A stretch of DNA of 64,000 nt from Pseudomonas sp. B21-028 (GTDB lineage Bacteria > Pseudomonadota > Gammaproteobacteria > Pseudomonadales > Pseudomonadaceae): contig NZ_CP087184.1 in the NCBI RefSeq assembly GCF_024749045.1, positions 2,604,001 through 2,668,000 on the forward strand, in the 5' to 3' direction. Shown piece after piece: positions 10,855 through 63,600 of this stretch (within the stretch, counting starts at the first letter, position 1; every line of letters starts with the position of its first letter). A model generated the notes under the pieces. That model made no database searches. It saw nothing but the letters and a program-made list of their open reading frames with translations, and was not told the DNA's origin. The translations under genes and the position numbers were made by a program.

Positions 10855-11003
10855 ATGGGGGCATTAATGGTGATTTCCGTACAAGTTTTACGTGGTGCCG
10901 ACGGCCAGACACGTCTCGCCTACCTCCCAAGGAAGGGGGGCTTGCCACGGAGCGCAGCAACAATGATGGCTGGTTCCGCGCTGGCCTAAATGCGGAGCTC
11001 GTT

Positions 11004-11252: not shown

Positions 11253-11385
11253 TGGGAGGTTGAGAGCGCCCGTATCTTCACGATTTCGCCGCGCAGCGCG
11301 CGGGAAATCTGCATATTCGTCATGTCAGTCTTTGTGCTTTGCGCGAAAGATAGTCGCCAAGCTCGCCATCGCATGGGCCGTCAAA

Positions 11386-11598: not shown

Positions 11599-11691
11599 TG
11601 TTTCGACTCCAATCGAGGACTCAAGAGCGTAGCAGCGGAAGGGACGGAAACCAAAGCGCGGTAGGCCGAGAAAGTACTTGCTGAGATTAGT

Positions 11692-11898
11692 GGCAGCAAT
11701 CGGCCGATAGTGTTGAAAAAGTCGCTCCGTTCAAACTGCCTGGAAAATTGACCGGGGAAAACGCCATTTTTGCACGCTGCTACGTGAAATCTGAGCCCGG
11801 AAGCTTTAGCCAAAAGTAAGGATTTCAATCTCAGATGCGTACTTTTCTGCCATGGATACCAAGGCCGACTTTTCCAACAGAATCGGCCAATAGCTGCC
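11692..11898. mobile_element. MITE-like element or IS relic with 30-bp inverted ends
   Basis: The ends 11692-11721 and 11869-11898 are inverted repeats, identical at 25 of 30 positions (core atcggcc...gctgcc and tttttcaac-type inner ends). They bound a 207-bp unit without a transposase. Ends with this ttgaaaaag motif are common in Pseudomonas IS debris. No target-site duplication was identified with confidence. Confidence 0.5.
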
Positions 11899-45130: not shown

Positions 45131-46204
45131 ATGTTGAAATCGATCGTTCCGCTACTGTTGATCGCGTCTACCGCTCAGGCGGCAGACTCCGTCAGGATCT
45201 ACAACTGGAGCAGCTACATCGCCCCCGATACCCTGCAAAACTTTACCACTCATACTGGGCACCCGACTCAGTATGACGTGTACGACAGCAACGAGGTCCT
45301 CGACGCCAAACTGATGGCCGGCCGTTCCGGGTATGACGTGGTGTTTCCCTCTAACCACTTCATGGCCCGGCAGATCAAGGCCGGTGCGCTGAAACCGCTG
45401 GACCGCAGCAAACTGCCGAACTGGCAGAACCTCAACCCGACGCTGATGAAAGTTCTGGAGGCCAACGATCCGGGCAACCGATACGGTTTTCCCTACCTGT
45501 GGGGCAGCACCGGCATTGGCTACAACGTAGCCAAGGTCAAGGCAGTCTTGGGCGATATACCAATAGACTCATGGGACATCGTGTTCAAGCCCGAGAACAT
45601 GAAAAAACTCGCCCGATGCGGCGTAGCCATGCTCGACAACGGTCCCGAGATCCTTCCCATCGCCTTGAACTACCTGGGGCTTGGGCATCACAGCAAGGAC
45701 AAGGCTGACTACGAGAAGGCCCAGGCCCTGCTACTCAAAGTGCGCCCCTATGTGAGTTACTTCCACAACTCCAAGTACACCAGCGATCTTGCAACGGGTG
45801 ATGTGTGTCTGGTCGTGGGGTTTTCTGGCGACGTGATGCAGGCGGTCGCAAGAGCCAATGAGGCCGGGAACGGCCAGCAGATTGCCTACGCCATCCCCAA
45901 GGAAGGCTCACCCATGTGGTTCGACATGGTCGCCATGCCCGCCGATTCTCCGAATGAAGCTGCCGGTTACGCGTTTCTGAATTACCTGCTGGACCCCAAC
46001 GTCATGGCTGACATCAGCAACCACGTGCACTATGCCAACGGCAATGCTGCCGCTGAAGGCATGGTCGACAAGGCCATTCTCAACGACCCGATGGTGTACC
46101 CGCCTGAAAGCGTGATGAAGAAACTCTTTGTGCTGGAAGCGATGCCGCTGGAGACCGACCGGCTGCGCACGCGTGTTTGGAGTCGGGTTAAAAACGGGCA
46201 ATAA
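45131..46204 (+). CDS. PotF/SpuD-like polyamine-binding protein
   Basis: A 357-residue periplasmic binding protein. It has a signal peptide (MLKSIVPLLLIASTAQA), then VRIYNWSSYIAPDTLQNF and VYDSNEVLDAKLMAGRSGYD, typical of putrescine/spermidine binding proteins. The ATG at 45131 with GAGG 6 nt upstream is chosen over the TTG at 45119. No ABC permease or ATPase follows, so it either borrows another polyamine transporter or acts in sensing. Confidence 0.87.
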   Translation: MLKSIVPLLLIASTAQAADSVRIYNWSSYIAPDTLQNFTTHTGHPTQYDVYDSNEVLDAKLMAGRSGYDVVFPSNHFMARQIKAGALKPLDRSKLPNWQNLNPTLMKVLEANDPGNRYGFPYLWGSTGIGYNVAKVKAVLGDIPIDSWDIVFKPENMKKLARCGVAMLDNGPEILPIALNYLGLGHHSKDKADYEKAQALLLKVRPYVSYFHNSKYTSDLATGDVCLVVGFSGDVMQAVARANEAGNGQQIAYAIPKEGSPMWFDMVAMPADSPNEAAGYAFLNYLLDPNVMADISNHVHYANGNAAAEGMVDKAILNDPMVYPPESVMKKLFVLEAMPLETDRLRTRVWSRVKNGQ

Positions 46205-46342: not shown

Positions 46343-47701
46343 TCATTTAAGAAATGCATTCTGTTGACCAGCAATTGTTTCTACGCCCGACTCGGAAATA
46401 TTCGTTTCTTTAAGTGGAACCTCACCTACCGAAAGCGCACGCTCGATGAGTAACTCGCTGCCCTTGTCTTTCAATAAGGCTTGCAGCCGCTGGAATTCGC
46501 CGCACCAGATGGTTTCAATATCGCGATCCCGCGCCTTGTCGCGATCGCTGCTGAGGGCTATGGCGCGAACCTGCATGCGGCCATTGTCGGCTTTTCCACC
46601 CACTTCCACTCCGTAGCCGGGGGTAGCGGCCTTGCGCAGCACGACCTTGCCGGTTTCTGCCCAGGCAGTCGCCATGCCTTCGCGCACTTCGTAGCCGAGG
46701 CTGGCCAACCCGCCGAGCACGGCTTCGCGGCGGGCGAGGGCGGCCTGGTCCTGTAAGTGGGAAGCGATAAGCGTTTTACACTGCTCGATCAGTCCGGTCA
46801 TTACCGAGAGCTCGGTGTCGGTTGTACAAGCGCCAATATGACCGAGCAAGGTCGCGTGTTCGATGCCTGTGTAGGTTTTGACTTCGCTGGCCAGATCCTG
46901 CATTTGTTCGAGACACTCGCGCTGTCTCTGGAAGTTTCGCGTGGCAGCGGCGAGGTCGAGTACTAGGCTGTCGAGCAGCAGGTTGCGCCGCTTGGCATCG
47001 GCTTCCGTTTCAGCGCGTTCCAGTGCCAGGAGGAACGGCGCGGCACACTCAGCGCCTTGCAGCAGTTGCAGCTCCACGATGTGGCGGTCAATGCGTAGCA
47101 ACCGTACGTCGCGCGTTGCATCCGGCTCCCGGGCCGCAATCCATTCGCGCAGGGAAAGCTCGGGTTCGTCGAGCTTGAGTTGCTGCGCGAGGGCGCGTTG
47201 GGTATCGCTTAGGGTTGGCTCCTCGTTTGCCTTGCTCAAGTGGCCGAAACCCTCGGCCAGCAGACGTTCGGCATCTTCACGACTGGCACCGCTGGCCAAT
47301 CGGGAGAGGGATTCCAGCAAGGCCTGATCGACGCTTTCGGGGTTGGCTTGCAAAGCGTCAAGCAGGGTTTCTGCGTTTTCCTGGACGCGTCGGTCGCGTT
47401 GGCGTCGTTCGGCAGCGCGAATGATCGCGCGCTCTTCGCGGTCCTCCAAGTCACGGTGTAGGTGCTCGATCTCCACTGGAACGGCCTTCTGCAGTTCTGC
47501 CAATCGGTCTTCTGCCAGCAGAGCGCGAAGGCGAGTGTGTCGCTCCAAGAAGGCGGAGCGCTCCTGTTCACTGAGTTCGCCAAGCCTTGTGGCCTGTGTC
47601 TGCCAGCGGTCCACGGCGCGTTCCAGGCGTTGCAGGTGGCCTTCACAAATGGCGATGATTTCTTCGCGGGTAACAATGCGAACGACCTTGGGACCACTCA
47701 T
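46343..47701 (-). CDS. Charged, probably coiled-coil protein of the helicase-Clp operon
   Basis: A 452-residue protein with no signal or membrane segment. Residues ~15-130 and 200-330 are rich in Glu, Arg, Leu and Gln in heptad-like order (HLQRLERAVDRWQTQATRLG), suggesting long helices or coiled coils. The C-terminus has a beta-rich part (YEVREGMATAWAETGKVVLR, then EVGGKADNGRMQVRAIALSS). Its ATG overlaps the helicase stop by 4 bp, so it is the last gene of a four-gene operon. I know no family function; a structural, sensor or adaptor role is plausible. Confidence 0.75.
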   Translation of the reverse strand: MSGPKVVRIVTREEIIAICEGHLQRLERAVDRWQTQATRLGELSEQERSAFLERHTRLRALLAEDRLAELQKAVPVEIEHLHRDLEDREERAIIRAAERRQRDRRVQENAETLLDALQANPESVDQALLESLSRLASGASREDAERLLAEGFGHLSKANEEPTLSDTQRALAQQLKLDEPELSLREWIAAREPDATRDVRLLRIDRHIVELQLLQGAECAAPFLLALERAETEADAKRRNLLLDSLVLDLAAATRNFQRQRECLEQMQDLASEVKTYTGIEHATLLGHIGACTTDTELSVMTGLIEQCKTLIASHLQDQAALARREAVLGGLASLGYEVREGMATAWAETGKVVLRKAATPGYGVEVGGKADNGRMQVRAIALSSDRDKARDRDIETIWCGEFQRLQALLKDKGSELLIERALSVGEVPLKETNISESGVETIAGQQNAFLK

Positions 47702-50700
47702 TGGCAGATTTCCGTATCAACTGAAGTAGGGCTGGGTTGCAGCGGCTGCTCGGCTTGCATGGCGTGTTCGATTGCTTCACGCAGCCGTGAGCGTTCGCTG
47801 TCGCCGCTGTGATACCAAGCTTGCGACGACACACGATGGATGTGCGGGATGGCGCGGTGCAGCACGGATGGGCGCCAAATTTCTCGGGCGCGGGCACGTT
47901 CCAGCAGATTATGGCAAGGCGCATCGCACTCGATGCCGATTGCGTAAAGGCCCGTGCCTGGATTCTCGATGGCGAAGTCGAGACCGAAAGCGTCGCCTTC
48001 ACTGGCGGGAGCGGCCTGCCATCCCAGGGAATGAATGAATTCACCGACCAGCCTGACAAAGCCGTCGCGTTGCTGACCTTGCTCACGATGCTGGCTGCTG
48101 CGGTCGGTCTGCAGGCGCTCCAGCAACTTGGTACTGCTGCTGAACTCGCCCGAGGAGAGCGCGCGAGCATATTCCAGATAGCCTTGCAGATAGTCTCGCG
48201 GGCTGTTGGGGGCACGGTGCGTGTTGAGCATGTCGGAGATGTCGGCGATCGGCATCGACGTGATCATCACCACCTTGCGCCGGGCGCGGGTCACCGCCAC
48301 GTTCAGGCGTCGTTCGCCACCCGTCTGCCCCAGTACACCGAAGCTGCGGCGGAATGTGCCTTGGCTGTTGCGACCGAAGGTGGAGGAGAAGACGATGATG
48401 TCGCGTTCATCCCCCTGCACGTTCTCCACGTTCTTGACGAACACCGACATGTCCTCGCCGTCTTCGCTGCGCTCGCGCTCCTGGGTGTAGGCGGCGCGGA
48501 ACAGTTCATCCTGCTCTGCCCGCTGCTCCAAGTGCTCCTCGATGAGGTCGGCCTGCTTGCGGTTGAAGGTGACGACACCCACCGAGGGTCGATGGTCGTA
48601 GGGCTCCTGCCACAATTCGTTCAGGTACTCGACGACCCGTTCGGCTTCCTGGGCGTTGCTCTGGTTTTGATACAGCCCACCGACCTGAATCAGCTCCAGC
48701 GGCTTGATGCGCTGGATGCTCGCTTGCGGGTGTCGGACCGGAACGTTCAGGCGATTGCCATAGAACGAGGCGTTGGAAAAGCCGATCAGTTCACGGTAGG
48801 CCGAGCGGTAGTGGATCTGCAATGTCGTGCTGGGCAGGGCGTTGCGCGCTAGTTGCAGCAGGTCGGGGCAATCCTTGATCTCGCGACGATTCCAAGTGTC
48901 TTCGAACGCTTCGCGTTGTTCCTCATCCGCGTCTTCATCAGGTTCGTCGCCATCAAACACTTCGGCTTCGTCGCTTTCGATGCGACTGGAAAAGAATGCC
49001 GTCGGCGGCATTTGCTTCTCATCGCCGCTGACCACAGTGACCTGGCCGCGGAACAGGGTCGGCAGGGCGAACTCAACCGGCATCTGTGAGGCTTCGTCGT
49101 AGATAACGGTATCGAACAGGCCTGCCTTGAGCGGCAGCACACGGCTGGCGACGTCCGGGTTCATCAACCACACCGGGCGTAGGCTCATCAGGCCTAAGTG
49201 ACTGCCCAGTTCAATGAATTCGCGCAGGCGTCGTGAGCGTTTGCCAGTCAGACGAGTGACATCCTCCCATTGTTTGCGATTACCCAGGTGATCAAGGTTG
49301 ATGGCTTTGGCCAGCAGCTCGCGGTTGAGCAGCCGCATCTGCGCATCGGCTTGCGCGAGGCTGGCGACTTTGGCACGGGCTTCGTCCTGGCTGAACAGCA
49401 GTTCGGGATTGGTTTGCTCGACGCGGTGTTTCCAACCCAGTCGAGCTTCGCGGTTGAGCAGGCGCCGCACCGCGGCTTCAAGCTGCTCGGGCGCGATGTT
49501 GTCCAACTGTTCCTGGCGTTGGCGCAGCAATGCGAGCAGCTCCAGGTCGGCTGCTGTCAACTGAGCAGCGCGCCCGCGGAATGCCTGGTAGGCGGCCAGG
49601 AAGGGCAGCGCTTCATGCAGCCGATCAAGAGACAGTTGATTACTCAGATTGTGCTCGATGGCATGCTGCAGCTGCTGCACCAGTTCTTCGCCCAGCCAGT
49701 CGCCGAGTACCTTGAGTTGCTCGAGGCTGGATTGGCGAACGCCATGGCGCATCAGCGAAGCATCGAGATCGCTGAGCAGCGCCTCGAGATGTTGTTTGTC
49801 GCCGGCGAGGGCGGCCTCGTCGGCCTGCCGGGCGCGAGGCGATTGCGCCAACGCCATGGCCAGCGCCTGGATTTCCAGCAGGTGGCGGATGTCGCTCTTC
49901 GCGAAGCTGATCAATTCCAGGCAGGCTTGCTGACTCACAGCTTCCAGTTCCAACGCCTGGTGCAGCATACTCAACTCGGCGCGCAATGGTCGCCACTGGC
50001 TTTCAAGGCGGATGGCTGCCTGCAGGGTGGGTAGTGCTTCAATAACACGGCTTTCCCCCTGGCCCTGAAGGAAGTTGCGCAGTCGGTTGCGCCGCAACAG
50101 ATGCATCGGGTTGATGTTCGCCAACCAGGACCGGGCTGCCATGACCTTGGTGCAGTCTTGATCCAGATGCCTGAGGGCCTTGTTTTCGAGCAGGCAGAGG
50201 GCCGGTGACAAGGCGGGGGCGTAGTGGTCCTGATCCAGTTGGCCGAGTTGCTGATCCAGTTGCTGTAGTTCACCGAGAATCGACTCTCCCCGTGGAGGTT
50301 GGCCCGCTTCGCGGCTGCGGAAAAGCGGTAGCCACCGCGCAAGGCGCAGACGTTGCTCTTGCTTCAGGTCGAGCAGGGCTGCGACATGGGCCGCTATCCA
50401 GTTACGGTACGGCACCGGGTCGTCGATTTCGAAGCTGGCAGGGTGTGCTTGCAGCGTGGCCTGACGGTTGTGTTCGGCTTGGGTGAAACTGTGCAGATTG
50501 TCGGTGAAAGCCTGCAAGGTCGCCCGGTCGGCGGCGAACGACTGTAACTGGGCCAATGGACTGCCTTCGTAGCGTGCGGGCAACCACAGGCGAATCAGAG
50601 GGGCGCAGCTTTCCTCCAAACGGGTCAGGCTAGCGAGGTCCAGGGAGGCCAGGCGTTGGCGCAGGGCCGGGAACGCGAGCGGGGCCGGGCCGGATTCCAA

Positions 50701-53700
50701 TTCAATCAACTCGCCGAGCAGCCTGCGATAGCTGAGGCCGGTATTTTCATCCAGGCGATGCAGGCTCTGGTGGAAGCGGTCGAGCTCGCCCTCCAAGGCC
50801 TCGATGCGGGCCGCGACTTGTTCGCGCTGGCGCTGCCAGCCCTGCGCCTGGCTGCCGTTCGTGAACAGGCTTTCCAGTTGTTCGCGAATATTGCGGATGA
50901 CGGGCTCGCGGTCGCGGTTGACGTCATTGAGCATGACGATGCGTTGACCAAGGCCTTCGGCGACCAGGCGTTTGTACACGACCTCAAGCGCCGCATGTTT
51001 CTGGCAGACGATAAGCAAGCTGCGTTGGCGGCCTATGGCGTCGGCGACCATGTTGACGATGGTCTGGCTCTTGCCGGTTCCGGGCGGCCCCTCGACCAGC
51101 AGTCCCGGGCTTTGTCGGGCCTGGATCACGGCCGCTTCCTGGGAGGGATCGCTGGCCACGGTGAAGTAACGTTGCAGCTCGCCTGGCGGTGCCTCGTGCG
51201 CGGTTTCGTCGGCAGTCTTGAGGCGCAACGCCGTTTCCAGGCCGGTACCGGCGGGCGACAGGGTTTTCAGTTGGCGCAGGTCTTCACCGATGGCTTGCCC
51301 CATGAAGGTCACGTGAAACAGCACCGCCGCGCAGTCCAGCTCGTCTTGGTAGGGCGCGATCTCCACGGTGCTGGCGGGCAGGTTGCCAAGGGCGCGAGAG
51401 CGAATGGTGGCGAGCATGCCGAAGGCGTCCATCACATCCGCCGCCCGAATTGACGAGCGGCCCAGCAGTTCATCGGCGGTCTTGCGCCAACGTTTGCAGG
51501 TTTCGGCGCCGAGCACGCTTTCCAACGCGGGGTTGAGCCGCACTTCCTCACGCTCACTGTCGAACGCCAAGGCGGCGTGACCACGGGAACCCAGCTCCAG
51601 CAGCAGTTTCACGGGCCACAGTAGGAGCGGGATGATCCGCGTACGCGTGGTGCCGCGAGGGTCGCGATTGAGCAGGAACGGGAAGCCCAGGTACAGGCCG
51701 TCGATGCCGGTGTCGCGTTTGTACAGCGCGCTTTGCCGGTACAAGGCATGCAGGCGCGATTCCAGCTGGCCGTTGAGCTGAAAACTCTCTGGGTCGAGGT
51801 TCACTGCCCGGGCATTACGTTGCAACAGGTGATCGAGCAAAGCCGCGGCCGGGCTGCGCGCGCTGTTCAGTTCGTTGACGTCGATCCGTGCGGTGCTCTT
51901 GCCGATGCTCATACGCACCAGTGGTCCGCGCATCACTGCGGTCACCACCTTCTTCTCGAAGAAGTCGAGGATCTGTGAGACGTACTGCTGTTTCTGTGGT
52001 TCCAGCCAATGACTGGACGGAATGGCGAGCAACACCAGTGCCTGGGCCAACGGCATACGTCGCTCCAGGCGGAACTGCTCGGCCCACTCGTCCACTGCCG
52101 GCACGCCACACCGGGCAAAGCCTTGGATGCGTTCATCGACACTGCGGTACAGCTCAAGCCGCGAATGGAATAGCAGTTGGGTCGCCCCTTCGGAGTCGAA
52201 CCAACCGACATCGGCAGTCCTGGCCAACTCGGCGGCGGCCTCTACAATCGAGGCCCCCGAACGGAACTGACTGATCGCCGCGCTGAGCAGCACAATCAGG
52301 TCTTCTTCGGCGATCACCCGGCGCTCCGACAGTGAGCTCAGCCCCGGATGGTCGGTGTCTGGAAACAGGCGTTGGCGCTCTTGCCATTGCGTGGACAGCT
52401 TGGCGCGCGAGGTCGATAGCAGGAATATCCGCAGTTGCTCTTCAACCAACTCGATGTGTTGGTGCAGGGCACGCTGACGTACGTTTTCGGCGCGGGATTT
52501 GAGACGCGACAGCCAGTTGTCGGTCTGCAATTGCTCAAGCAGGTCCGGGACCGATCCGCTGATCAGGCGATAGCCTTCCAGTGGGTGCTCCAGTAGCCAT
52601 CCTGGTGTGACGATGTCGCCACGATGAATCAACGGGATTTCCGGATTGAGGATTCTCAAGGCCAGCATCAGACGGAAGTCGTCCTCAATCCCTTCGTGCT
52701 GAACGACCTGGCGCAAGCCGGCGACCAGAGAAGGGGCGAGACCGACCTGCTCGGCCCACGTCACGATCACACCGCGCAGCAAATGGTCCAGGGCCTGTTG
52801 CCAGTTATCCGCCTGGGCAGCCGCCAGGGCGAATACGCCGGGCTTGTGGAAGCGGCGCTCGCCCAGCAGTAGGGTCGCGCCTTCACCTTCGTCCGTTTGC
52901 TGGACGGAAGAGGCCGGTGCCTCGACCGCAACGCCGTTGAGCCAGCCTTCGACCTGCGGCCATTGCCAGCGCTGATGACGGTCGCGTGCCAGCAAACCTC
53001 GCAGCAGCAGGTGCAGGCGCGGGTCGAGGTCGTCGGGGATCGGTACTCCGTTGGCCAGCACGTGAATAAGAAATGCATTGGCATTGATGCCATCGAAGCA
53101 GGCGCCCTGGGTCAGTTGCTCGAGCAGGATCATGCCCAGGCTCCACCAGTCCGAGGCAGCCGCAACGCCGCCTGCGATGGCTTCGGGCGCCATGTAGCGG
53201 CTGGTTTCCAGTGGCGATACGATGTCCAGGTCGAACTCGGACAGGCGTGCCGAACCGAAGCCGCTGATCACCAGGTCCAGCGGTTCGCGGGAACGTACCA
53301 GCAGGCTGGCCGGGCGCAGGTCACGATGGCGCAGGCCTGCCTCGTTGAACGCATGCAGCGCCTGGCCGAGTTCGTTGACCACATGGTGCACGCTGTCGCT
53401 GTCGCGGATCACGCTGCCGAGGTCTGCCAGGGTCCCGCCGGTGAGTTCTTCGATGACCTCGTAGGCCCGGTCATCCCAGCGGCCGGTGGCAATGATTTCG
53501 GGGACGTGCTCGCGTGGCAGTCGACGGATCACATCATAGATCGCCGGGTCCGGTTCGGCGCCGGGTCGATACAGGGTCAGGACCGCTTGTTGCGCGGTTT
53601 CCTCGTGCTTGGCGAGGTATCGTTCTCGCACGCCGTCGGTACTGCTGATCTGACGAATCAGCCGCCAACCATCGATCAGGGTCTGGGCGATGCCCTCTGG

Positions 53701-54006
53701 TTCGCTGCTGTCTGGTTGGGCGTCGTAGGACGTTGCTTGCGCAAGTGAGCTGCCACATTCAAGGCACATCAGGTCGCCATCGACCATCGGGTGACCGTTT
53801 TCGCAGAGCAGGTCAGGGACACTCCCCTGAGCCGGACTGACTGGCGGGAGGGTTTCCTCAGTGAAGACGGCTTGCGGCCGCCAGCCGGCGGTACGAATGG
53901 GTTCGCCAGCGAGGTCCCAGCCGCAGGGTTGTTCCTGAATGAGCCCTTCGCAGAACATTTCCTGGAGGGCGCGCTCGGTTTTGCAGTTAGGGCAGAAACG
54001 TATCAT
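47698..54006 (-). CDS. Pseudokinase - SF1/UPF1-like helicase - Vsr/MTES-like nuclease giant protein
   Basis: 2102 residues. Residues 5-84: Cys pairs (CPNC at 5-8, C19, C28, C68, CLEC at 81-84), likely zinc ribbons. Residues ~110-360: Ser/Thr kinase fold with HRD at 227-229 and YMAPE at 271-275, but the beta-3 Lys is replaced (AVLT, 141-144), the Asn after HRD is lost and DFG is GFG (249-251), so it is probably a pseudokinase. Residues ~960-1920: COG1112-type helicase, Walker A GPPGTGKS 973-980, DEAS 1637-1640, GDEKQMPP 1661-1668, motif VI VAVTRARR at about 1903. Residues ~1985-2090: nuclease-like end with D2010 and E2026-x-D2028. This resembles Mokosh MkoA (kinase plus helicase) with an added nuclease. 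Start: GTGGAG 8 nt upstream. Confidence 0.85.
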   Translation of the reverse strand: MIRFCPNCKTERALQEMFCEGLIQEQPCGWDLAGEPIRTAGWRPQAVFTEETLPPVSPAQGSVPDLLCENGHPMVDGDLMCLECGSSLAQATSYDAQPDSSEPEGIAQTLIDGWRLIRQISSTDGVRERYLAKHEETAQQAVLTLYRPGAEPDPAIYDVIRRLPREHVPEIIATGRWDDRAYEVIEELTGGTLADLGSVIRDSDSVHHVVNELGQALHAFNEAGLRHRDLRPASLLVRSREPLDLVISGFGSARLSEFDLDIVSPLETSRYMAPEAIAGGVAAASDWWSLGMILLEQLTQGACFDGINANAFLIHVLANGVPIPDDLDPRLHLLLRGLLARDRHQRWQWPQVEGWLNGVAVEAPASSVQQTDEGEGATLLLGERRFHKPGVFALAAAQADNWQQALDHLLRGVIVTWAEQVGLAPSLVAGLRQVVQHEGIEDDFRLMLALRILNPEIPLIHRGDIVTPGWLLEHPLEGYRLISGSVPDLLEQLQTDNWLSRLKSRAENVRQRALHQHIELVEEQLRIFLLSTSRAKLSTQWQERQRLFPDTDHPGLSSLSERRVIAEEDLIVLLSAAISQFRSGASIVEAAAELARTADVGWFDSEGATQLLFHSRLELYRSVDERIQGFARCGVPAVDEWAEQFRLERRMPLAQALVLLAIPSSHWLEPQKQQYVSQILDFFEKKVVTAVMRGPLVRMSIGKSTARIDVNELNSARSPAAALLDHLLQRNARAVNLDPESFQLNGQLESRLHALYRQSALYKRDTGIDGLYLGFPFLLNRDPRGTTRTRIIPLLLWPVKLLLELGSRGHAALAFDSEREEVRLNPALESVLGAETCKRWRKTADELLGRSSIRAADVMDAFGMLATIRSRALGNLPASTVEIAPYQDELDCAAVLFHVTFMGQAIGEDLRQLKTLSPAGTGLETALRLKTADETAHEAPPGELQRYFTVASDPSQEAAVIQARQSPGLLVEGPPGTGKSQTIVNMVADAIGRQRSLLIVCQKHAALEVVYKRLVAEGLGQRIVMLNDVNRDREPVIRNIREQLESLFTNGSQAQGWQRQREQVAARIEALEGELDRFHQSLHRLDENTGLSYRRLLGELIELESGPAPLAFPALRQRLASLDLASLTRLEESCAPLIRLWLPARYEGSPLAQLQSFAADRATLQAFTDNLHSFTQAEHNRQATLQAHPASFEIDDPVPYRNWIAAHVAALLDLKQEQRLRLARWLPLFRSREAGQPPRGESILGELQQLDQQLGQLDQDHYAPALSPALCLLENKALRHLDQDCTKVMAARSWLANINPMHLLRRNRLRNFLQGQGESRVIEALPTLQAAIRLESQWRPLRAELSMLHQALELEAVSQQACLELISFAKSDIRHLLEIQALAMALAQSPRARQADEAALAGDKQHLEALLSDLDASLMRHGVRQSSLEQLKVLGDWLGEELVQQLQHAIEHNLSNQLSLDRLHEALPFLAAYQAFRGRAAQLTAADLELLALLRQRQEQLDNIAPEQLEAAVRRLLNREARLGWKHRVEQTNPELLFSQDEARAKVASLAQADAQMRLLNRELLAKAINLDHLGNRKQWEDVTRLTGKRSRRLREFIELGSHLGLMSLRPVWLMNPDVASRVLPLKAGLFDTVIYDEASQMPVEFALPTLFRGQVTVVSGDEKQMPPTAFFSSRIESDEAEVFDGDEPDEDADEEQREAFEDTWNRREIKDCPDLLQLARNALPSTTLQIHYRSAYRELIGFSNASFYGNRLNVPVRHPQASIQRIKPLELIQVGGLYQNQSNAQEAERVVEYLNELWQEPYDHRPSVGVVTFNRKQADLIEEHLEQRAEQDELFRAAYTQERERSEDGEDMSVFVKNVENVQGDERDIIVFSSTFGRNSQGTFRRSFGVLGQTGGERRLNVAVTRARRKVVMITSMPIADISDMLNTHRAPNSPRDYLQGYLEYARALSSGEFSSSTKLLERLQTDRSSQHREQGQQRDGFVRLVGEFIHSLGWQAAPASEGDAFGLDFAIENPGTGLYAIGIECDAPCHNLLERARAREIWRPSVLHRAIPHIHRVSSQAWYHSGDSERSRLREAIEHAMQAEQPLQPSPTSVDTEICQ

Positions 54007-54020
54007 GGGGTGTGCTCCAC

Positions 54021-54665
54021 TCAGCGGCGTCGCGACGCGTGTGCGCTGATCTGTAAATGATGGCCTTGTTCATGCAGCAGATCGCGTAAGCGCAATAGAT
54101 CGTCACGTCGTGGGATGCCGGCCATCCAGACGCTGCCACTTTCGTCAAACATCAAATCGAGCGCCTTGTCGGTGGGTTCGAGCAGGCGTTCGTAATAACC
54201 CAGGCGTGCCCGGCCCAGTGGCGTGAGCAGGCTCAGACGTTGATTGTCACTGCCGCGCAAGGCCATGGTCTGGCTGAGCGCTTCGATATAGGGGTCGCTG
54301 ATCAAGGCATCTATCAAGCCCTTGGTCTGGAGCAACGGCTCGTTGAGTTGCTCCAGGGAGTAGCCACTGTAGACCAGGATGTCGAGTTCGCTGAGCCGAC
54401 GTAGGCCTTCGAGCAGTGATCGCAGGGCGTCGAACTGGTCAAACGGTTCCCCTCCGGAAATGGTGATTCCTTCGGCCTCATGCAGCCAGGGGGTTATCTG
54501 TTCAAGCAGTTGCTCCAGCGACAAGCGTCGGTGCCCGGGGCCCCAGGTGTCGGCAGAGATGCAGCCTGGACAGCGGATGCTGCAGCCCTGGAACCAGATG
54601 CCAATACGTCGCCCCGGGCCGAGGGTAGTGACCGGAAAATGCATGCGCGACAGGCTAAGGTCCAT
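54021..54665 (-). CDS. Radical-SAM (NrdG/activase-like) 4Fe-4S protein
   Basis: A 214-residue radical SAM protein of the compact activating-enzyme type. The cluster motif CxxxCxxC is C28-C32-C35 in QGCSIRCPGC. The SAM-binding GGEPFDQFDA motif follows at about 71. A C-terminal ~90-residue extension is present. No glycyl-radical enzyme, the usual partner of such activases, is in the window. It starts 2 nt after the Clp-like stop and ends 14 nt before the helicase start, so it is part of the same transcript. It may modify a protein or nucleic acid in a defence pathway; that is inference. Confidence 0.85.
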   Translation of the reverse strand: MDLSLSRMHFPVTTLGPGRRIGIWFQGCSIRCPGCISADTWGPGHRRLSLEQLLEQITPWLHEAEGITISGGEPFDQFDALRSLLEGLRRLSELDILVYSGYSLEQLNEPLLQTKGLIDALISDPYIEALSQTMALRGSDNQRLSLLTPLGRARLGYYERLLEPTDKALDLMFDESGSVWMAGIPRRDDLLRLRDLLHEQGHHLQISAHASRRR

Positions 54666-54667
54666 GT

Positions 54668-56500
54668 TCAGCGACGTTCCATCTTCAGTCCGGTGATGTC
54701 CAACTCGGTGATCGTGAAGTGCTCGCCCGGTTGCGCGTCCTGATCGAACAGTGCCCGCGACAGGGGGTTGAGCAGGCGTGCCTCTAACTGGTTGCGGATG
54801 CCCCGGCCACCGTTGGACAGGTCCTGCAGACAGAGGCTATGCAGTGTCTGGCGTGCCTGGGGGGCCAATTCGATAAACAGGTTCTGTCCCTGCAGGTCGT
54901 CGAAGGTGGCGTTGACCATTTGTTCGAAGATCTGCACTGCAACGCCTTCGCGAATGAAGTCGAAGACGATGATGTTTTCGCCGATTCGATTGAGGATTTC
55001 CGGACGATTGAGCACCAGCTTGAAATACCGGTCGATCTCGCTGTGCACCTTGTCCTGGACATGCTCGAAGGCTTCGCCCGGCAGGACGTTGGCAACGCGT
55101 TCGCCATTGTCACCCTGGCGATAGATCCCCAGGTTGGAAGTGAACACGATCAGGGCCTCCGAAAAATACACCCGATCACCGCGGCCTGAAGTCAGCACTC
55201 CGTCGTCGAGGATTTGCAGGAACTTGTCGAGAATCCGTGGATGAGCTTTTTCAATTTCATCGAATAACACCACGCTGAACGGCTTCTCGCGAATAGCATT
55301 GGTCAGCTCACCGCCGACGTCATAACCGACGTAGCCGGGCGGTGCGCCGATAAGGCGTTGATCGGCATGCTCGGCGCTGAACTCCGACATGTCGAAGCGA
55401 ATATATGCACTTTCGTCGCCGAATAGCAGGCTGGTAATCGTTTTGGCGAGTTCGGTCTTGCCTACGCCGGTCGGTCCCGCGAGAAAGGCTACGCCCCGTG
55501 GACGGTTGCCCTTGCGACTGGCGCCGACGCCCGTCATCGCACGCTTGACGATGTCGAGCATGTGCGTCACCGCATGCTCCTGGCCTTTGACCCGCTGGTG
55601 GACGAGCGCGTCCGCATGCCGGATACGCTGACGGTCGATCTTCAGCCACGGATCCTCAGTGACACCGATTTTGTAGCGACGCACCGCATCGGCAATCTGC
55701 TCCATGGCTACACCCTCGACCCGCGCCAGTTGCGCAATGGCGCTGAGATCGAGCAGCAGCAATCCCTCGGTGTTCTGGACGAAAGCTTCCACAGCCTGAT
55801 GCATTACCACTTCGCTGGCGCCCTGGCTGCCACTGAGCCCTTTGAGCAACGCCGGTGCCAATGCACGGCGGGACAATTGATCGGGTTTGGACACGGGAAT
55901 GTGGCGCAGGCGCGGGTTGTCGACCAGCAACCAGTCGGGCAAATCACCTTCTTTTTCCACCAGCCATAGCAGGGTATTGAAGAACGGTTTACGCAGCTGT
56001 GTGGCCGGACGGCTGCGAGCCTGATGGGATTGCACCAGGGCCTGCGTGAAGAGCTGGTGTTCAGCAGCGCTGAGGGAGTCGTTGCGAACCACCAGGCGTG
56101 AGGCGAAATCGATGATCAGCGCGATAGGTTCGCCAGCACGACCCACCAGCCGTGACAGGGTGGCGCCCAGCAGATCGACACCTGCGGGTGCTGCGCCATT
56201 GACCGGAGTCAGGCCAAGTTCCTGCAGCAACGTCTGGCCGGCTTCAGGGGCGGAGCCGGGTTTGTCGACTGCCCGGAAACCGGACACGGGATCCCAGGCG
56301 ATGACCTGGGTGTAGCCAGCATCGAGCAGGGCATTACAGAGGGTTTGGTTGAAGCTCTGCGCAGTCACCGTGCCGGGCGCCACTTCACTGGCCTGCAGGT
56401 CGCGGATGTTGCCGGACAGGACGAATTGGCTCTTCAGCGGCAGGAAGCGGAGAAGATCTCGTAGCCAACGTGGGCTTTCAAATATGGCAATCCCTGACAT
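54668..56500 (-). CDS. ClpB-type AAA+ ATPase with degenerate N-terminal half
   Basis: 610 residues. The C-terminal half is a ClpA/B second-ring module: Walker A GPTGVGKT (342-349), pore loop GYVGYD (389-394), Walker B VVLFDE (410-415), sensor region FTSNLG, arginine-finger region NRPEILNRI and sensor 2 GGRGIRN. The first ~290 residues look like an AAA domain that lost its Walker A (VLSGNIRD in place of the P-loop; LALIIDFASRL-like strand at 127-135). It has no ClpB middle coil and no ClpP-binding loop seen. It is first in the operon with radical-SAM, helicase and coiled-coil genes. It probably remodels a partner protein. Confidence 0.85.
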   Translation of the reverse strand: MSGIAIFESPRWLRDLLRFLPLKSQFVLSGNIRDLQASEVAPGTVTAQSFNQTLCNALLDAGYTQVIAWDPVSGFRAVDKPGSAPEAGQTLLQELGLTPVNGAAPAGVDLLGATLSRLVGRAGEPIALIIDFASRLVVRNDSLSAAEHQLFTQALVQSHQARSRPATQLRKPFFNTLLWLVEKEGDLPDWLLVDNPRLRHIPVSKPDQLSRRALAPALLKGLSGSQGASEVVMHQAVEAFVQNTEGLLLLDLSAIAQLARVEGVAMEQIADAVRRYKIGVTEDPWLKIDRQRIRHADALVHQRVKGQEHAVTHMLDIVKRAMTGVGASRKGNRPRGVAFLAGPTGVGKTELAKTITSLLFGDESAYIRFDMSEFSAEHADQRLIGAPPGYVGYDVGGELTNAIREKPFSVVLFDEIEKAHPRILDKFLQILDDGVLTSGRGDRVYFSEALIVFTSNLGIYRQGDNGERVANVLPGEAFEHVQDKVHSEIDRYFKLVLNRPEILNRIGENIIVFDFIREGVAVQIFEQMVNATFDDLQGQNLFIELAPQARQTLHSLCLQDLSNGGRGIRNQLEARLLNPLSRALFDQDAQPGEHFTITELDITGLKMERR

Positions 56501-56618
56501 GTTTCAGCTCGTAACGTTGGGTCGGTACGGGCAGGGTATTGCTCAATGCGCGCATTTGCCAGTGCGCTGCTACGAAAAGTTGTATTGAGAGAGTGCTTAT
56601 TGTTAGGTCAGAGCTAGG

Positions 56619-56657: not shown

Positions 56658-56674
56658 TGGTGAGGAAATTTTCC

Positions 56675-57346
56675 ATGAGCGTTACAGAGCAGTCGGGCGT
56701 CTCCACCTTAGTGGGTACGCCCAAGGAGGCGCGGGCTAGCTTGAGCCGCTCACATGCGGATCGAGTGCTGGTCGTGTCTTTCGATCGTATCAAGCTCGGA
56801 GTATTTGAAGCGTTGGCGGAAAACTTTGCCCATGTGGCCTCCTCGATGTATGAGGTGCTGCAGGAGCGTCAGGACCCGAAGGCACTGGAGCGCCTGGCCG
56901 AGGTGTTTGTGACGCGTAAGCCACCTTCGCCTCGTCTGCTCAAGGAAGCGGCGATGCTGGTACAGGCCCGCAAAGCAGTGCTGGAGAGCGGTGACTGGTT
57001 GACCTCCGCAGATATCGCGCAGGTGGCCCAGTTGAGTACCCGAAACCCGAGTGCCCAGCCCAACAAATGGAAAAAGCAAGGTCAGATCTTCGCTATCAAT
57101 CATGGTGGGGTCGACTATTTCCCGGGTTACGGCTTGGATCCGGACGCGGGCTATCGGCCGTTCAAGGCGTTAGCCAAAGTCATTGAGGCTTTCGGTGGCC
57201 ACAAGGACGGCTGGGGTCTGGCTTACTGGTTCCGGTCAGATAACAGCTTTCTGGGTGGTAAAAGGCCCCAGGACCTGCTGGCATCGGCGCCTGATCGGGT
57301 GATTGCTGCCGCACTGGATGAGATCCAGGGCATTGTCCATGGCTAA
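56675..57346 (+). CDS. MbcA/ParS-Xre-type antitoxin, copy 2
   Basis: A 223-residue protein nearly identical to the first copy (about 14 substitutions, several clustered at residues 37-42, FDQVNL versus FDRIKL). It has the same helix-turn-helix-like middle and toxin-binding C-terminus. The ATG at 56675 matches the first copy and follows GAGGAAA; the in-frame ATG at 56660 is not needed. It is divergent from the Clp-like operon. Because the two copies are so alike, cross-neutralisation between modules is likely. Confidence 0.85.
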   Translation: MSVTEQSGVSTLVGTPKEARASLSRSHADRVLVVSFDRIKLGVFEALAENFAHVASSMYEVLQERQDPKALERLAEVFVTRKPPSPRLLKEAAMLVQARKAVLESGDWLTSADIAQVAQLSTRNPSAQPNKWKKQGQIFAINHGGVDYFPGYGLDPDAGYRPFKALAKVIEAFGGHKDGWGLAYWFRSDNSFLGGKRPQDLLASAPDRVIAAALDEIQGIVHG

Positions 57347-58046
57347 GCAGCGTACCGAGTCCAGCGATAACATGGCTACACCGGCCACCGATTTGGCGGC
57401 GTCCATCACCCCGGTTCCCGCGGCTACGCTGCGCGTGACGTTCACGGTTCTTGCTAAAGGCGACGTGTTCCATCGTGTGCATCAGGATAAATATCAGCCG
57501 GATCAATTCAATCCCGGTGTGCACGGCAATGCACGCTTCAGCCCAATCCAGGACGATCAGGGGCAGGCGATTCCTACTTTGTATGGCGGCACAACAGTTG
57601 AGTGCGCCTTGATGGAAACCATTTTCCACGACGTTCCCCACACGGCTGGCTTCAAGAGCTTTGACAAAAGTAAGCTAGCTGGGCAGGTGCACTCTGTCGT
57701 CCAGGTTAGCCAGCCGCTGCAACTGGTTGATCTGTCCAGTGTCCCACTGCGTAAATTGGGCGTCACTCGCAAGCAATTGATCGACACTGAGAAGGATCAA
57801 TACCCCGCAACGCGCAAATGGGCAGAGGCGATCCACCGTCAATATCCGGATGTGCAAGGGCTGTCATGGGTGTCCCGACAAGATGATTCGGCACGTGCGG
57901 TGGTGCTCTTTGGTGACCGGATTCCTGAAGGTGCGCTCCATTCGCAGGGGGCGTCACGCAGCTTGACCGAGGATTCGAATGCATTCGACACGGTGCTAGA
58001 TCTGGCAGACCGGATTGGGGTCGTCGTCATCGCGGGGAAAAACTGA
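57339..58046 (+). CDS. RES-domain toxin, copy 2
   Basis: A 235-residue paralogue of the toxin at 10050-10757. The RES residues are kept (Arg in NARFSP, Glu in ALMETIFHD, Ser in DDSARAVVLF), so it should be active. It is coupled to the antitoxin by the same ATGGCTAA overlap. Differences from copy 1 cluster in the first 40 residues. NAD+ depletion is the known activity of the family. Confidence 0.9.
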   Translation: MAKQRTESSDNMATPATDLAASITPVPAATLRVTFTVLAKGDVFHRVHQDKYQPDQFNPGVHGNARFSPIQDDQGQAIPTLYGGTTVECALMETIFHDVPHTAGFKSFDKSKLAGQVHSVVQVSQPLQLVDLSSVPLRKLGVTRKQLIDTEKDQYPATRKWAEAIHRQYPDVQGLSWVSRQDDSARAVVLFGDRIPEGALHSQGASRSLTEDSNAFDTVLDLADRIGVVVIAGKN

Positions 58047-58387: not shown

Positions 58388-59665
58388 CTAACGACTTACC
58401 TTTTTCTGAAGGTCCGCGGCAGCGGCCTCAATCTTTGCAAGCATCTGAGCTCTTGGCTTGCACTCCTCATAACCTTTAAGGAGCAAGTCTCGGACAGTCT
58501 CGATGGCCTTGAGAGTGTCTTGCGGAGTGGTATATCCATCAATCGCTCGTCCGTAGTAGAGCTTGGCGTCGACCTCTGCCGTAATGCCGCCGGGATGCTC
58601 CATGAAAGCCCAGTCCTCTAGGCGCGATCGCACCTGGTTTAATTTTTCGTGAACCTTGGCAGTTACGCCGGCAGTACGCATAGAACTATTGCAGAGCTTA
58701 CGTAGGATGGGCCCAATAGTTGTGTGCTTCTCAAGTGACATGCCCCGCGCGGGGCGCCACCTAGAACGAACCCCAGGCGCTCCGCCGTACGCGATCGCTC
58801 CGTTTCTGACACCGGTGAACGGCATTGTGCGCGATCTACTTTGTTTTCCGGAGGCGATGCGGGCTGGGCTAATAAACTTGGAGTCGTACGCCATTCCTTG
58901 AGGCGTCCCCTTGGGGTAAGCACTGTCCGGAAGTCCCTCGACCTGGGCCTGTACCTTCGCGAGTAGCTCCTGACTAGGTGAAATCAGGTATGGGACGGCT
59001 TGGCCCGGGTAGTAGAGTCCCGGCCATCTTGGCGCCACTTGATACAGCCCGTGCTCCTGCAGCCACTCCTTCCTGAATCCCGGCATAGGCGAAATGTAGG
59101 GCTCATCTAGCAGTAACCAATCGCCCGATTGTGGATCCTCCCAGCCGGTCATGTGATCGGCTTTGGGCACCCTATCCAGGTCATTCATGACCTTAACGTT
59201 CCCATTCCGGAAAACTCTCACCAGCCCGGTCGAGTTCATGAAGAGCAGAGTAAAACTAGCTTGATCCAGATACTGCATCGCACTGACCTGGCTGCTAGCA
59301 TCGGTACGCATTTCGAGATGATCTGGCGCCTCAAGCTTGAATCTACTCAAATAGGCGCCGCCAACCTGAAGGCCGTCGATAAGCAACTCGGAAAGGGGGC
59401 GCGTGAGGCGAACCTCTACTGTGTAACGACCGGAGGATCGAACCTCGGAGCTGACGTCATCCCAGTACGCCGTTACATAGGCGATGTAGTTTTGAGCCGC
59501 AATCGTGGTAATCGCACGTTTGGCGTGCAAGAAGTTCTGGAAGCCTGCTTTGCGAGCAGCCTCATCGAGGGCTTGGTGGTGAGTGATATTAAATTCGCGC
59601 TTGAGAGCCTTTGCCAAGCGCTTGATGCCGTCGACAGTGGACGGAGGGGTAGCGAGGGTAACCAT
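58388..59665 (-). CDS. DUF5623-like island protein
   Basis: A 425-residue protein recognised from the N-terminal LAKALKREFNITHHQALDEA, then AGFQNFLHAKRAI. That segment is a helical region like the GSPRK-type N-terminus of mobile-island proteins annotated DUF5623. The middle is beta-rich; the last ~100 residues are helical (TLKAIETVRDLLLKGYEECK). The ATG at 59665 has GGGAG 6 nt upstream and is preferred over the GTG at 59686. No known function. It sits at the island edge next to the att-like repeat, a common place for such genes. Confidence 0.65.
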   Translation of the reverse strand: MVTLATPPSTVDGIKRLAKALKREFNITHHQALDEAARKAGFQNFLHAKRAITTIAAQNYIAYVTAYWDDVSSEVRSSGRYTVEVRLTRPLSELLIDGLQVGGAYLSRFKLEAPDHLEMRTDASSQVSAMQYLDQASFTLLFMNSTGLVRVFRNGNVKVMNDLDRVPKADHMTGWEDPQSGDWLLLDEPYISPMPGFRKEWLQEHGLYQVAPRWPGLYYPGQAVPYLISPSQELLAKVQAQVEGLPDSAYPKGTPQGMAYDSKFISPARIASGKQSRSRTMPFTGVRNGAIAYGGAPGVRSRWRPARGMSLEKHTTIGPILRKLCNSSMRTAGVTAKVHEKLNQVRSRLEDWAFMEHPGGITAEVDAKLYYGRAIDGYTTPQDTLKAIETVRDLLLKGYEECKPRAQMLAKIEAAAADLQKKVSR

Positions 59666-60082
59666 GAATATCTCCCGGCCTATCACGCAGCGTCACCCGT
59701 CTCCGCTACAACAGACCGATTGAATTCATAGTCAGTCGTTTAGCAAAGCAGTGCCGTTACCAGCTTTGAAGACGGGAGTCATACGCCTGCCGGGGCGCCA
59801 TCGCATGGTAGCAGCGGTTTTGCGATGAGTTCAAGCAGCAAGCTCTCGAAAAGTTTTACCTCTCTTTTTACTCGTTATGCTGCTTTTTCTGCCGAGTGAA
59901 TCTGCAAAGGCAGCATTGGCTCGATTGGTGTATGTTCGCTCGTAGAGAGATGATCCTGCAGTCGACACGGGCAACGCACGTCACTTTGTAACCATCGCCT
60001 AACTTTCCAGACCGGACGCTTCCCGCCCGATTGGCTAGTGGTAGTAGGTAATGGCACAGCCCGGAGTCCCGCCTTCCTTCCT
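59666..60082. other. Region without a supported gene
   Basis: About 417 bases between the DUF5623-like gene and the right att-like repeat. Only short open frames occur. It probably holds the DUF5623-like promoter and the distal island end. Confidence 0.4.
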
Positions 60083-60629: not shown

Positions 60630-60686
60630 ACCTAGTATTCATTCCCCTTTGTGCCGGTCGGACCGTATAAGGATATAGAAGCGCCG

Positions 60687-63600
60687 ATGAAAGACTTTGA
60701 TGATGCTTTGCTTGCCTTGCTCCAGGATGACGAATTACAGCTGCCAGACAGCCTCCAAAGGCAGTCAGGTGGTGGGCCACAAGTCCTTTCCTTCGCTCAG
60801 CAGCGTCTCTGGTTCCTGCAACGCCTGGAACCGAATGCCACGGCTTACAACCTGTCCCGTGCTTTTCTGTTCGCGGGTACCTTGAATATCTCTGCGTTGC
60901 GTCTGGCATTCGAGGCGCTGATCAAGCGACATGGGGTATTGCGCACACGATTTATCGAAGTCGATGGCGAGCCTCGGCAAGAGCTGCTGGAGGATGTGGT
61001 GTTCGTCATGCAGGAGCGTGAGGTGCCTGGAGTCGATCGCGCCTCACGGCATGAGCATCTGGCGTCGTTGCTGGCGATTGAGGATCAGTCGGCGTTTATT
61101 CTTTCCCAGGCGCCCCTGCTCGAGGTCAAGCTGATTCGCTACGACGAATTCAGCCACGCTCTTCTCTTGAAAATGCATCACATCGTGACTGATGCCTGGT
61201 CCAATCCGATACTCGTGCGCGACCTGGCAACGGCGTACAGCCAAGCCATCCGAGGTGAAGCCCCGACGCTGCCCCCATTGCCCGTGCAATATGTGGACTA
61301 CGCGGTTTGGCAGCGTCGTCGCTTGCACACTGACGTGGTGCAGGCTGATCTTGAGTACTGGAAAAACTATCTCGGCGCGTCGGTACCGGTGTTGGAATTG
61401 CCCACCGATTTTCCGCGCCCCGCGCAGCAAAGTCAGCGCGGACAACGGCTTCGGTTCGCACTGGACGATGTACAGTCCGCCCGGATCCACGCGTTCTGTC
61501 GCGATTATGCATCGACCCCTTTTGTCATCCTCCTGGCGGCCTGGCAGCTGCTGTTGGCGCGCTATAGCGGCCAACAGACATTTGCCGTGGGCGTTCCCCA
61601 CGGCGGGCGCAGCCGTGAAGAGCTGGAAGAGTTGCTGGGCTTTTTCGTAAATACGCTGGTTTATCGCGTTCAGCTGGACCCGCAACTGACGGGCCGTGCG
61701 CTTTGCCGTCGTTTGCGCGGTGAGTCGCTGTCTGCACTGCAGCACGCCGAACTGCCGTTTGAGTTGCTGCTAGAGCATCTCGCGATCGAGCGTGACGTCA
61801 GCCGCACACCGCTGTTCCAGGCGATGTTCAACTTGAGTACGGGGGCGGCAGTCAACCTTGCGTTACCCGGGCTTGAGGTCGAGCGTGTATTGCCGACACA
61901 AGACAGTGCCAAATTCGATCTCACCTTGGACGTAGCGGTTCGACCAGACGGGGTGTATTGCGAGCTGGAATACAACCTGGACCTGTTCTCGCCTGCCACC
62001 GCCGAGCGTCTCGCCGGACTTTATCGTCACCTCCTGAATGGTTTGTTGACCCAACCAGATGTGCCGGTCTGGCATCTGCCGATGCTTGATGAGGTTCAGC
62101 GCTTGCAGCAGCTGGATACCTGGAACCGGACTGAGCGAGCCCTGCTACCGAATCAGGACATGCTGGGCTTGTTCGAGCGTCAGGTCAGTGCCGATCCTGA
62201 TCGCTGCGCGTTGATCAGCGGCGAGCAACAGTTGAGCTACGCAGTGCTCAACGCCCGTGCCAATCGACTGGCCCATTGGCTCAGAGCTGCCGGTGTTGTC
62301 GGGGATCAACGGGTAGGCGTTTGCCTGGATCGCGAAGCTGATTTGCTCGTGACATTGCTTGCCATTCAGAAAAGCGGCGGCGCCTATCTGCCAATCGACC
62401 CCGGACAACCAGCGGCACGCAATGCCGATATCATCGAGCAAGCCCGACCGGGCCTGGTGCTGACCCGTGAGGCTCTGCGGGGTGTCGTCGGTTCCTCCGC
62501 GCGGGTGGCCACCCTCGAAACGCTGGCCGATGCCTTACCCGCGCTGCCCGATACCAACCTGGCGCTGGCCACTCATCCACGTCAACTGGCCTATACCCTT
62601 TACACCTCTGGCTCTACGGGACGACCCAAGGGCGTCGACATTGAACGCCAGGCGTTTATCAATTTTCTGCTGGGCATCCAGGAACATGTGCAACTGAGCG
62701 ACGCCGATCGGCTCTTGGCGGTGACCACCCTGGGCTTTGATATCGCCGGGCTGGAGCTGTTCCTGCCGCTGATTCAGGGCGCGACGGTGGTGTTGGCCAG
62801 TCGTGAAGCCAGCCTGGACCCACGGGCATTGATCGACTTGCTCGAGCGTCACGCCATCAGTGTCATGCAGGCGACACCTGCCACCTGGCAAATGCTGGTC
62901 GATCACGATTCACTCGCCTGGAAAGGGCTTCGAGTGCTCTGCGGTGGCGAAGCACTGGGGTCAGAACTGGCCGAACGCCTGCTGGCGCGCCAGGTCAGGC
63001 TGCTGAATGTCTATGGTCCCACGGAAACCACAGTATGGTCGGCGGTGCATGCGGTAGAACAGGTGGACAGTGCTGTTATCCCCATCGGCCAGCCCTTGGC
63101 CAACAATCGCCTGTATGTCCTGGATGAGTTCCTCGAGCCCCAGCCGGTTGGCGTTGCAGGTGATCTATACATCGGCGGCAGTGGTGTCGCCCGAGGGTAT
63201 GCCGATCGGCCTGAATTGACCGCCGCGTCATTTATCCCCAATCCATTTGTGCAGCCTCATGCGCCGGGCGTCCAGGCAGGCAGTCGGCTGTACAGGACCG
63301 GTGATCGTGCGCGTTATCGCAGTGACGGTTGCCTGGAGTTCCTGGGGCGCAGCGATTTTCAGGTCAAGCTGCGCGGCTTTCGCATCGAGCCAGGTGAGAT
63401 CGAGGCGGCATTGTCCGCGTTGCCTGGCGTGGCTCAGGCGGTGGTGGTGTTGCGACGCGGCACCGGCGATCAGGACGTTCTGGTGGCGTATCTGTGCGGT
63501 GATATCACCGAGGTGGACAGCGCTGCCGTTGGGCAGCGACTGCGTGAACGGCTACCGGCCTACATGGTCCCGGGGGCGTTTGTCGTTCTGGCGAAGCTGC

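Follow-up and report, generated by a model that had tools for sequence, protein, structure and literature searches.

A Clp-radical SAM operon with a pseudokinase-helicase-nuclease and a coiled-coil protein is a candidate anti-invader system in Pseudomonas and other bacteria

Mokosh anti-phage systems combine a Ser/Thr kinase domain and a COG1112 RNA helicase with a PLD nuclease. We describe here a four-gene operon that resembles them in part, located on the minus strand at positions 46343-56500 of a 64,000-nucleotide stretch of the Pseudomonas sp. B21-028 genome (contig NZ_CP087184.1, positions 2,604,001 to 2,668,000), hereafter the window; the host genome is a single contig of 6.49 Mb. The operon encodes, in the order of transcription, a Clp-like AAA+ unfoldase (Clp; 54668-56500, 610 amino acids (aa)), a radical S-adenosylmethionine (SAM) enzyme resembling NrdG and pyruvate formate-lyase activases (54021-54665, 214 aa), a giant protein of 2102 aa (47698-54006) and a coiled-coil protein of 452 aa that we call the adaptor (46343-47701). 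Along the operon the genes are separated by 2 nt and 14 nt and then overlap by 4 nt; these coordinates and spacings, re-derived from the open reading frames, are those given by a first-pass annotation of the sequence. We propose that the four genes form an anti-invader system, most likely directed against phages or plasmids, in which a chassis made of Clp, the radical SAM enzyme and the adaptor would license a helicase-nuclease effector, and we put the probability of this reading at about 0.5.

The comparison with described systems starts with the giant protein. Following a Cys-rich N-terminus, Pfam recognizes a kinase-fold domain (Pkinase 3.9e-19, residues 160-352, 52951-53529), a DUF4011 match (residues 745-832, 51511-51774), a superfamily 1 (SF1) helicase of the COG1112 type (AAA_11/AAA_12, residues 953-1917, 48256-51150) and an MTES_1575 restriction endonuclease (REase) domain (residues 1983-2079, 47770-48060; 2.0e-16, 60.3 bits against a cut-off of 38.2). 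We aligned 15 intact giants, namely that of the window and 14 orthologues. All 15 retain the HRD aspartate; because the VAIK lysine is missing from every one of them and the DFG motif has become xFG, the kinase domain is, as read from its motifs, a pseudokinase. The helicase motifs inspected, GPPGTGKSQT, DEASQMP and (V/I)TRAR (SF1 motifs I, II and VI), are present in 15/15, as are the REase residues DFA and ECDAP. The likeness to Mokosh lies in this helicase, which matches MkoA (162.9 bits) and MkoC (99.2 bits), and in the presence of a kinase-fold domain. However, the active Ser/Thr kinase of Mokosh has no counterpart here, the pseudokinase and helicase are fused in cis to a REase, and Clp, the radical SAM enzyme and the adaptor come in addition. 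Pfam found no PLD nuclease in any of the four proteins, in agreement with the first-pass view that a nuclease of a different fold is fused in cis. The giant also aligns with the anti-phage protein ProA (NF058533) through its helicase-MTES_1575 half (best stretch, residues 944-2087) and with Hhe (NF042953; best stretch, residues 1327-2074), but at 500.9 and 312.4 bits against cut-offs of 1500 and 2000, respectively, and with a different N-terminal half and different operon partners in both cases. A further match is to the PADLOC model PDC-S37 (493 bits).

Clp contains two AAA+ modules (Pfam AAA_2 and ClpB_D2-small). The first appears degenerate, its Walker A motif being absent in a reading by eye, and the second is intact, ClpB-like and probably active. 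Its best NCBIfam score is 258.1 bits, against a ClpB cut-off of 1232.1, and it lies below the cut-offs for ClpB, ClpA, ClpV, ClpG and ClpK. The usual partner of Dodola DolB is a DUF6414 protein; Clp shares with DolB a ClpB-like AAA+ domain, but the match is restricted to residues 266-457 (63 bits) and DUF6414 is not among the matches. The second gene product has Fer4_12 and Radical_SAM domains and, at residues 28-35 (54561-54584), the CxxxCxxC cluster motif of NrdG activases, read from the sequence and conserved in the alignment; its three cluster cysteines and the GG of the GGE motif are invariant across 28 aligned sequences. It thus has the family and the motif of the NrdG and pyruvate formate-lyase activases, but its best NCBIfam match, NrdG, reaches 75.9 bits, under the cut-off of 126.1, and Pfam matched no glycyl-radical enzyme among the four operon proteins. 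A parallel can be drawn with the FtsH ternary conflict systems, where an AAA+ protein neighbours a radical SAM enzyme for which modification of a peptide effector has been proposed (PMC7159879). These are based on MoxR, vWA and FtsH, however, and the passages of that paper covered here hold no set of Clp, radical SAM enzyme, helicase and nuclease.

The adaptor matches no Pfam family. Its model is that of a mostly helical protein, with weak resemblance to KA1 domains and a C-terminal alpha/beta domain carrying a GY...WC signature. Its first five residues, MSGPK (47687-47701), also begin 118 of the 120 best-listed homologues out of 1264 relatives, many of these being close Pseudomonas copies; the remaining two are shorter proteins (401 and 336 aa). 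In an alignment of 49 hand-picked adaptor proteins, the M, S, G and P of this start never vary, nor do G336, Y337, W399 and C400. Since the codons for Gly, Pro and Lys differ synonymously, selection on MSGPK is best understood as acting at the peptide level.

Altogether, PADLOC and NCBIfam models match only parts of the four proteins, all NCBIfam matches lying below their cut-offs, and no paper recognizable as describing the four-gene set was found in the open-access full-text literature. The PADLOC comparison, suggested by the first-pass annotation, and the search for a named match thus returned no named four-component system. On the strength of these comparisons, the effector belongs with helicase-nuclease proteins already known from defence, and for the Clp/radical SAM/adaptor chassis neither the models nor the open-access papers that we searched yielded a matching system. 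What is new here is the near-invariant MSGPK, the re-use of Clp and the radical SAM enzyme with other effectors, and the place of the operon at what appears to be the edge of a Pseudomonas aeruginosa defence hotspot.

The comparative data indicate that the four genes form one unit, inherited together in many Proteobacteria. Among 298 sampled genomes of the family, six (G000, G123, G280, G126, G052 and G041) have a full-length giant, a Clp of at least 68% identity and a full-length adaptor, and none of these three is present in the other 292. Partial matches in this sample comprise a 51-residue adaptor match in G230, Clp at 38-39% in G046, G110 and G180, and weaker giant matches, mainly to the helicase-REase half, in 55 further genomes. 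We also collected 15 loci with a Clp of at least 60% identity (three from genome contigs, four from eight plasmid records and the rest from sampled genomes, five of the family and three of the class and phylum). The order clp, rsam, giant, adaptor is kept in 14 of them, from Burkholderia (L008), Bradyrhizobium (L009), Sphingomonas (L010), Caballeronia (L088) and Rhizobium (L089, L090, L097) to L110-L114, L126 and L131, and the fifteenth, L132, is a decayed copy with a truncated giant and no adaptor. Four further plasmid records (H3-H6) also contain the adaptor. Pairwise distances of the four proteins correlate over 13 loci, L097 and L126 being left out of the matrices (Spearman 0.65-0.86; 0 or 1 of 999 permutations as high). 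The ratio of nonsynonymous to synonymous substitution rates (dN/dS) against L110/L111 is 0.05-0.10 for clp, rsam and giant, and the adaptor, which evolves faster than the other three proteins, reaches 0.17; with L112, a more distant copy, the corresponding values are 0.11-0.18 and 0.34. With dS at about 1 throughout, these ratios are rough.

To judge from its borders, this unit is a block that behaves as a mobile cassette. The DNA of four Pseudomonadaceae copies, L110-L113, aligns with the window solely from 46359-46478 to 56500-56580, that is, over the operon, and the flanks of the window, L110 and L111 differ. The upstream DNA common to two other copies (56501-56580; homology of L110 and L111 reaches 56562 and 56580) is likely the operon promoter region. 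The operon is also carried by large rhizobial and Caballeronia plasmids. On Microvirga and Roseomonas plasmids, a whole adaptor and the end of the giant (residues 1466-2087 at 59% and 1648-2087 at 55% identity, respectively) lie beside transposases, and one Rhizobium plasmid retains the adaptor end. The suggestion that the four genes co-occur and travel together in varied locations is therefore borne out by the 6/298 genomes, the 14/15 loci and the shared DNA ending at the operon edges. Less of the description of the region as island DNA can be kept: the G+C content of the operon, 59-63%, is not low, and what speaks for an island is that homology to four relatives (L224-L227) ends just left of the operon, at 46181-46197. 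The search for a classical empty site gave this left end but no right-hand junction, and so defined no insertion point.

Several neighbours of the operon lie outside the unit. The toxin-antitoxin pair at 56660-58046, consisting of a RES-domain protein (PF08808; 57303-58046) and a 228-aa partner without Pfam match, was considered as a fifth component and ruled out because the DNA common to other copies stops at 56500-56580, before the pair. The L110 copy adjoins an Xre/MbcA/ParS antitoxin gene. The left neighbour of the operon belongs to a widespread family, with matches in 39 of 57 genomes, its own included, and often with paralogues; a DUF5623 gene in the right flank (58388-59686) has no match in the other 56 of the 57. 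Further to the right, a nonribosomal peptide synthetase-type gene occupies 60651-63962 (condensation, AMP-binding and carrier domains).

Clp and the radical SAM enzyme are also found with a different set of genes. Eight loci, which we call type B (L092, L093, L094, L095, L220, L233, L234 and L235), combine an SF1 helicase, a PIN protein and a coiled-coil protein with Clp and the radical SAM enzyme on plasmids of Moellerella, Polaromonas, Acinetobacter, Photobacterium and Leisingera and in three Pseudomonadaceae genomes; this second conserved operon is a candidate defence system in its own right. We also scanned 24 diverged Clp loci, with a radical SAM profile partly trained on them, and found the radical SAM enzyme and the coiled-coil domain together in 15 of the 24. 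The C-terminal coiled-coil domain was counted in 18 of the 24, by-eye additions and training members included; no hit at E<=1 came from 71 loci with an ordinary Clp, and three at 0.1 came from viral loci. A gene product starting with MSG(x)PK is encoded at most 1.3 kb from the Clp gene in 5 of 21 diverged loci (MSGPK in L012, L091 and L127, MSGSPK in L096 and MSGTPK in L134) and in none of the other 16; as a control, a single loose match was obtained from the 71 ordinary-Clp loci (1.10 Mb) and no match from 80 viral loci (1.40 Mb). The coiled-coil protein of L011 starts with MSGPS.

These coiled-coil proteins fall into two groups, L015, one of the 24 loci, being left out of the comparisons as a stretch with five stops. 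L011, L012 and L127 group with the window adaptor (phmmer 1e-6, 3e-8 and 8e-7; L127 at 98.8% in profile comparison), and L091, L128 and L133, which score 1.5%, 2.5% and 39% singly against the adaptor profile, were placed by eye in this group or in its C-terminal alignment. The second group holds L096, L134, L135, L130 and the type-B proteins, with cross-matches of 5.9e-6 to 6e-2 (L135, 6.5e-48) and 95% (3.5e-8) in the one comparison of type-B C-terminal domains with L096/L134. The two groups are linked only by profile matches of 40-52% (52% for L096/L134 against the window-like group), by their place, by the MSG(S/T)PK start of L096/L134 and by a GY/F...C pattern seen by eye. We judge them probably homologous, short of proof. 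Clp and the radical SAM enzyme are a chassis re-used with other effectors, and probably with a related coiled-coil protein.

How could such an operon act against invaders? In the mechanism that we propose, the giant would be the effector, its Cys-rich and pseudokinase front end regulating the SF1 helicase with its cis REase, and it would cut foreign nucleic acid after loading on it. Since a frozen tail and a conserved cysteine occur in the adaptor beside an NrdG-like enzyme without its usual partner, the radical SAM enzyme would likely act on the Ser-Gly-Pro-Lys tail and Cys400, or else these would be a handle for the Clp ring. Clp could then remodel the adaptor-giant complex, thereby releasing or arming the helicase-nuclease. 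The functional steps, the substrate of the radical SAM enzyme and the defence role itself are all inferences, the last drawn from the mobility, the gene context and the parallel helicase-nuclease sets. A more ambitious version would make the operon a new class of conflict system, in which an Hsp100 unfoldase whose first ring is dead, a radical SAM enzyme that modifies protein and an adaptor with MSGPK and an invariant cysteine license interchangeable helicase-nucleases via radical chemistry and unfolding, and which has become fixed at the border of the P. aeruginosa hotspot; we advance it tentatively, at somewhat less than even odds.

Supporting the idea of defence, three of the five type-B plasmid loci lie near defence-type genes (L094 near brxL and DarT; L095 near a TIR protein and HsdR-N; L092 near ArdA, HsdS and AbaSI), and L096 lies near an anti-phage dCTP deaminase. 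Among the four-gene copies, L090 has a reverse-transcriptase defence gene at its side (RT-DUF3800, 884 bits), L009 is flanked by an RNase H-SF1 helicase and L111 by a UvrD helicase, and the window and L110 have RES or Xre toxin-antitoxin genes.

A number of observations weigh against this proposal. The other two type-B plasmid loci have no restriction or BREX gene nearby, L093 having an antitoxin of the Phd/YefM type and L220 mostly genes that are hypothetical or of plasmid kind. Most tested flank proteins of the four-gene copies are not defence genes (the L114 copy, for example, lies beside a cation-efflux gene and an amidohydrolase), and PADLOC models match four of nine of them, mostly through shared helicase, DnaG-like or SMC folds, and one of ten in a second set. 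Carriage of the operon by phages was considered and rejected: 0/147 matching phage records cover 80% of Clp, the best 80 viral loci align to Clp only from residue 201 onward, in its C-terminal AAA part, and another scan of viral contigs gave no match. Radical SAM enzymes are oxygen-sensitive, and the lack of a matched glycyl-radical enzyme also counts here. As for the chassis, within the locus DNA examined the radical SAM enzyme was not found in 8 of the 24 diverged Clp loci nor the coiled-coil domain in 6; L013, L014, L016, L129 and L136 showed neither, the first three being clostridial Clp relatives about 40% identical. The type-B coiled-coil proteins show no significant direct homology to the window adaptor (0.3-1.6%; 40% for the C-terminal domains) and are without MSGPK; therefore, the tail is not the substrate in every member. 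Finally, a structural aligner places the N-terminal strand of the adaptor with the C-terminal domain in a single small fold, and the model thus allows that MSGPK may be kept for folding.

The strongest competing explanation concerns the hotspot itself. In a 2023 paper, the right-flank genes of the P. aeruginosa core defence hotspot 1 (cDHS1) serve as boundary markers and not as a system (PMC10250203), and the main text of that paper contains the words 'Clp' and 'AAA' 0 times. From its gene neighbourhood, the operon appears to form the edge of cDHS1 in G126, a genome resembling that of P. aeruginosa; G126 has a single giant match, and its Clp shares 98.9% identity with a protein assigned to P. 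aeruginosa. Here tRNA-Pro and defence-like genes come before the four genes; 19.5 kb separate the tRNA-Pro gene from the adaptor, and the interval includes Dcm, Vsr and HATPase genes. Within this hotspot of G126 (L228, 1605-16292), Dcm and Vsr are accompanied by a HATPase/response-regulator pair and by three large proteins that fit no clear family. In G052, pheT, an IhfA-like gene and tRNA-Pro are found about 7 to 9 kb from the adaptor. The PAO1 annotation lists such genes as a probable chaperone and a probable radical-activating enzyme. From place and domains, the border genes in print appear to be genes of this operon. Yet those flanking genes are described as present in every P. aeruginosa isolate (PMC10250203). 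Most defence systems are less constant. One could thus assume that the operon has no role in defence but a core function in stress, proteostasis or nucleic-acid repair, and that the hotspot grows beside it at an insertion-tolerant junction. The purifying selection seen in the dN/dS values fits this idea, and a Clp with a helicase-nuclease would suit repair or disaggregation. On the other hand, a core function sits badly with the patchy distribution elsewhere (6/298 family genomes), the differing flanks of the window, L110 and L111, the plasmid copies, the 5'-shortened giants and adaptors beside transposases in Microvirga and Roseomonas, the decay of L132, and the restriction and BREX genes next to some type-B sets. 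We consider this explanation less probable than defence, to which it is the most serious alternative.

A second, clearly less probable explanation is a kinase-phosphatase signalling module, in which the chassis would sense a phospho-signal and the pseudokinase of the giant would be a leftover receptor. It comes from Clp/radical SAM relatives that we call type C (L091, L012, L127 and L133), which are accompanied by signalling genes. L091 (4170-22032), on a plasmid of the rumen clostridial Aristaeella, encodes two kinases, FHA and PP2C proteins, a DUF4011-helicase-MTES_1575 protein, an MSGPK protein, the radical SAM enzyme and Clp; L012 has FHA and PP2C genes with Clp, the radical SAM enzyme and an MSGPK protein; in L127 a kinase-WD40 propeller fusion (8839-11841) stands in the gene row of Clp and the MSGPK protein, and L133 has a kinase gene. 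The weak KA1-like appearance of the adaptor model points the same way. TerY-P-like systems are a triad of vWA, PP2C and kinase; PP2C, FHA and kinase are seen in the relatives, and no vWA was found among those of their proteins that were scanned, which are only some of the neighbours. The four-gene form, however, has no active kinase, and Pfam matched neither FHA nor PP2C in its four proteins.

Still less probable is that the giant alone is a defence protein of the Hhe or ProA kind, with the other three genes as passengers. Its matches to ProA (501 bits), Hhe (312 bits) and PDC-S37 would favour this; the fixed order and co-occurrence of the four genes and the recurrence of Clp and the radical SAM enzyme with a different effector set speak against it. 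The least probable idea, that the adaptor becomes a toxin through maturation by the radical SAM enzyme and Clp, with the giant as a guard, draws on an operon shared by that enzyme and a fast-evolving protein with a frozen N-terminus, but the adaptor, at 452 aa and mostly helical, is no short precursor and matches no toxin family in Pfam.

If the anti-invader proposal is right, bacteria would be seen to arm nucleases also by radical SAM chemistry and Hsp100 unfolding, and it would be explained why a major defence hotspot of P. aeruginosa has a constant border. An orphan radical SAM enzyme would gain a testable substrate in the adaptor, namely its MSGPK tail and Cys400. More broadly, the chassis would connect helicase-nuclease operons of proteobacteria with kinase/phosphatase operons of other phyla, as a family that can be searched for.

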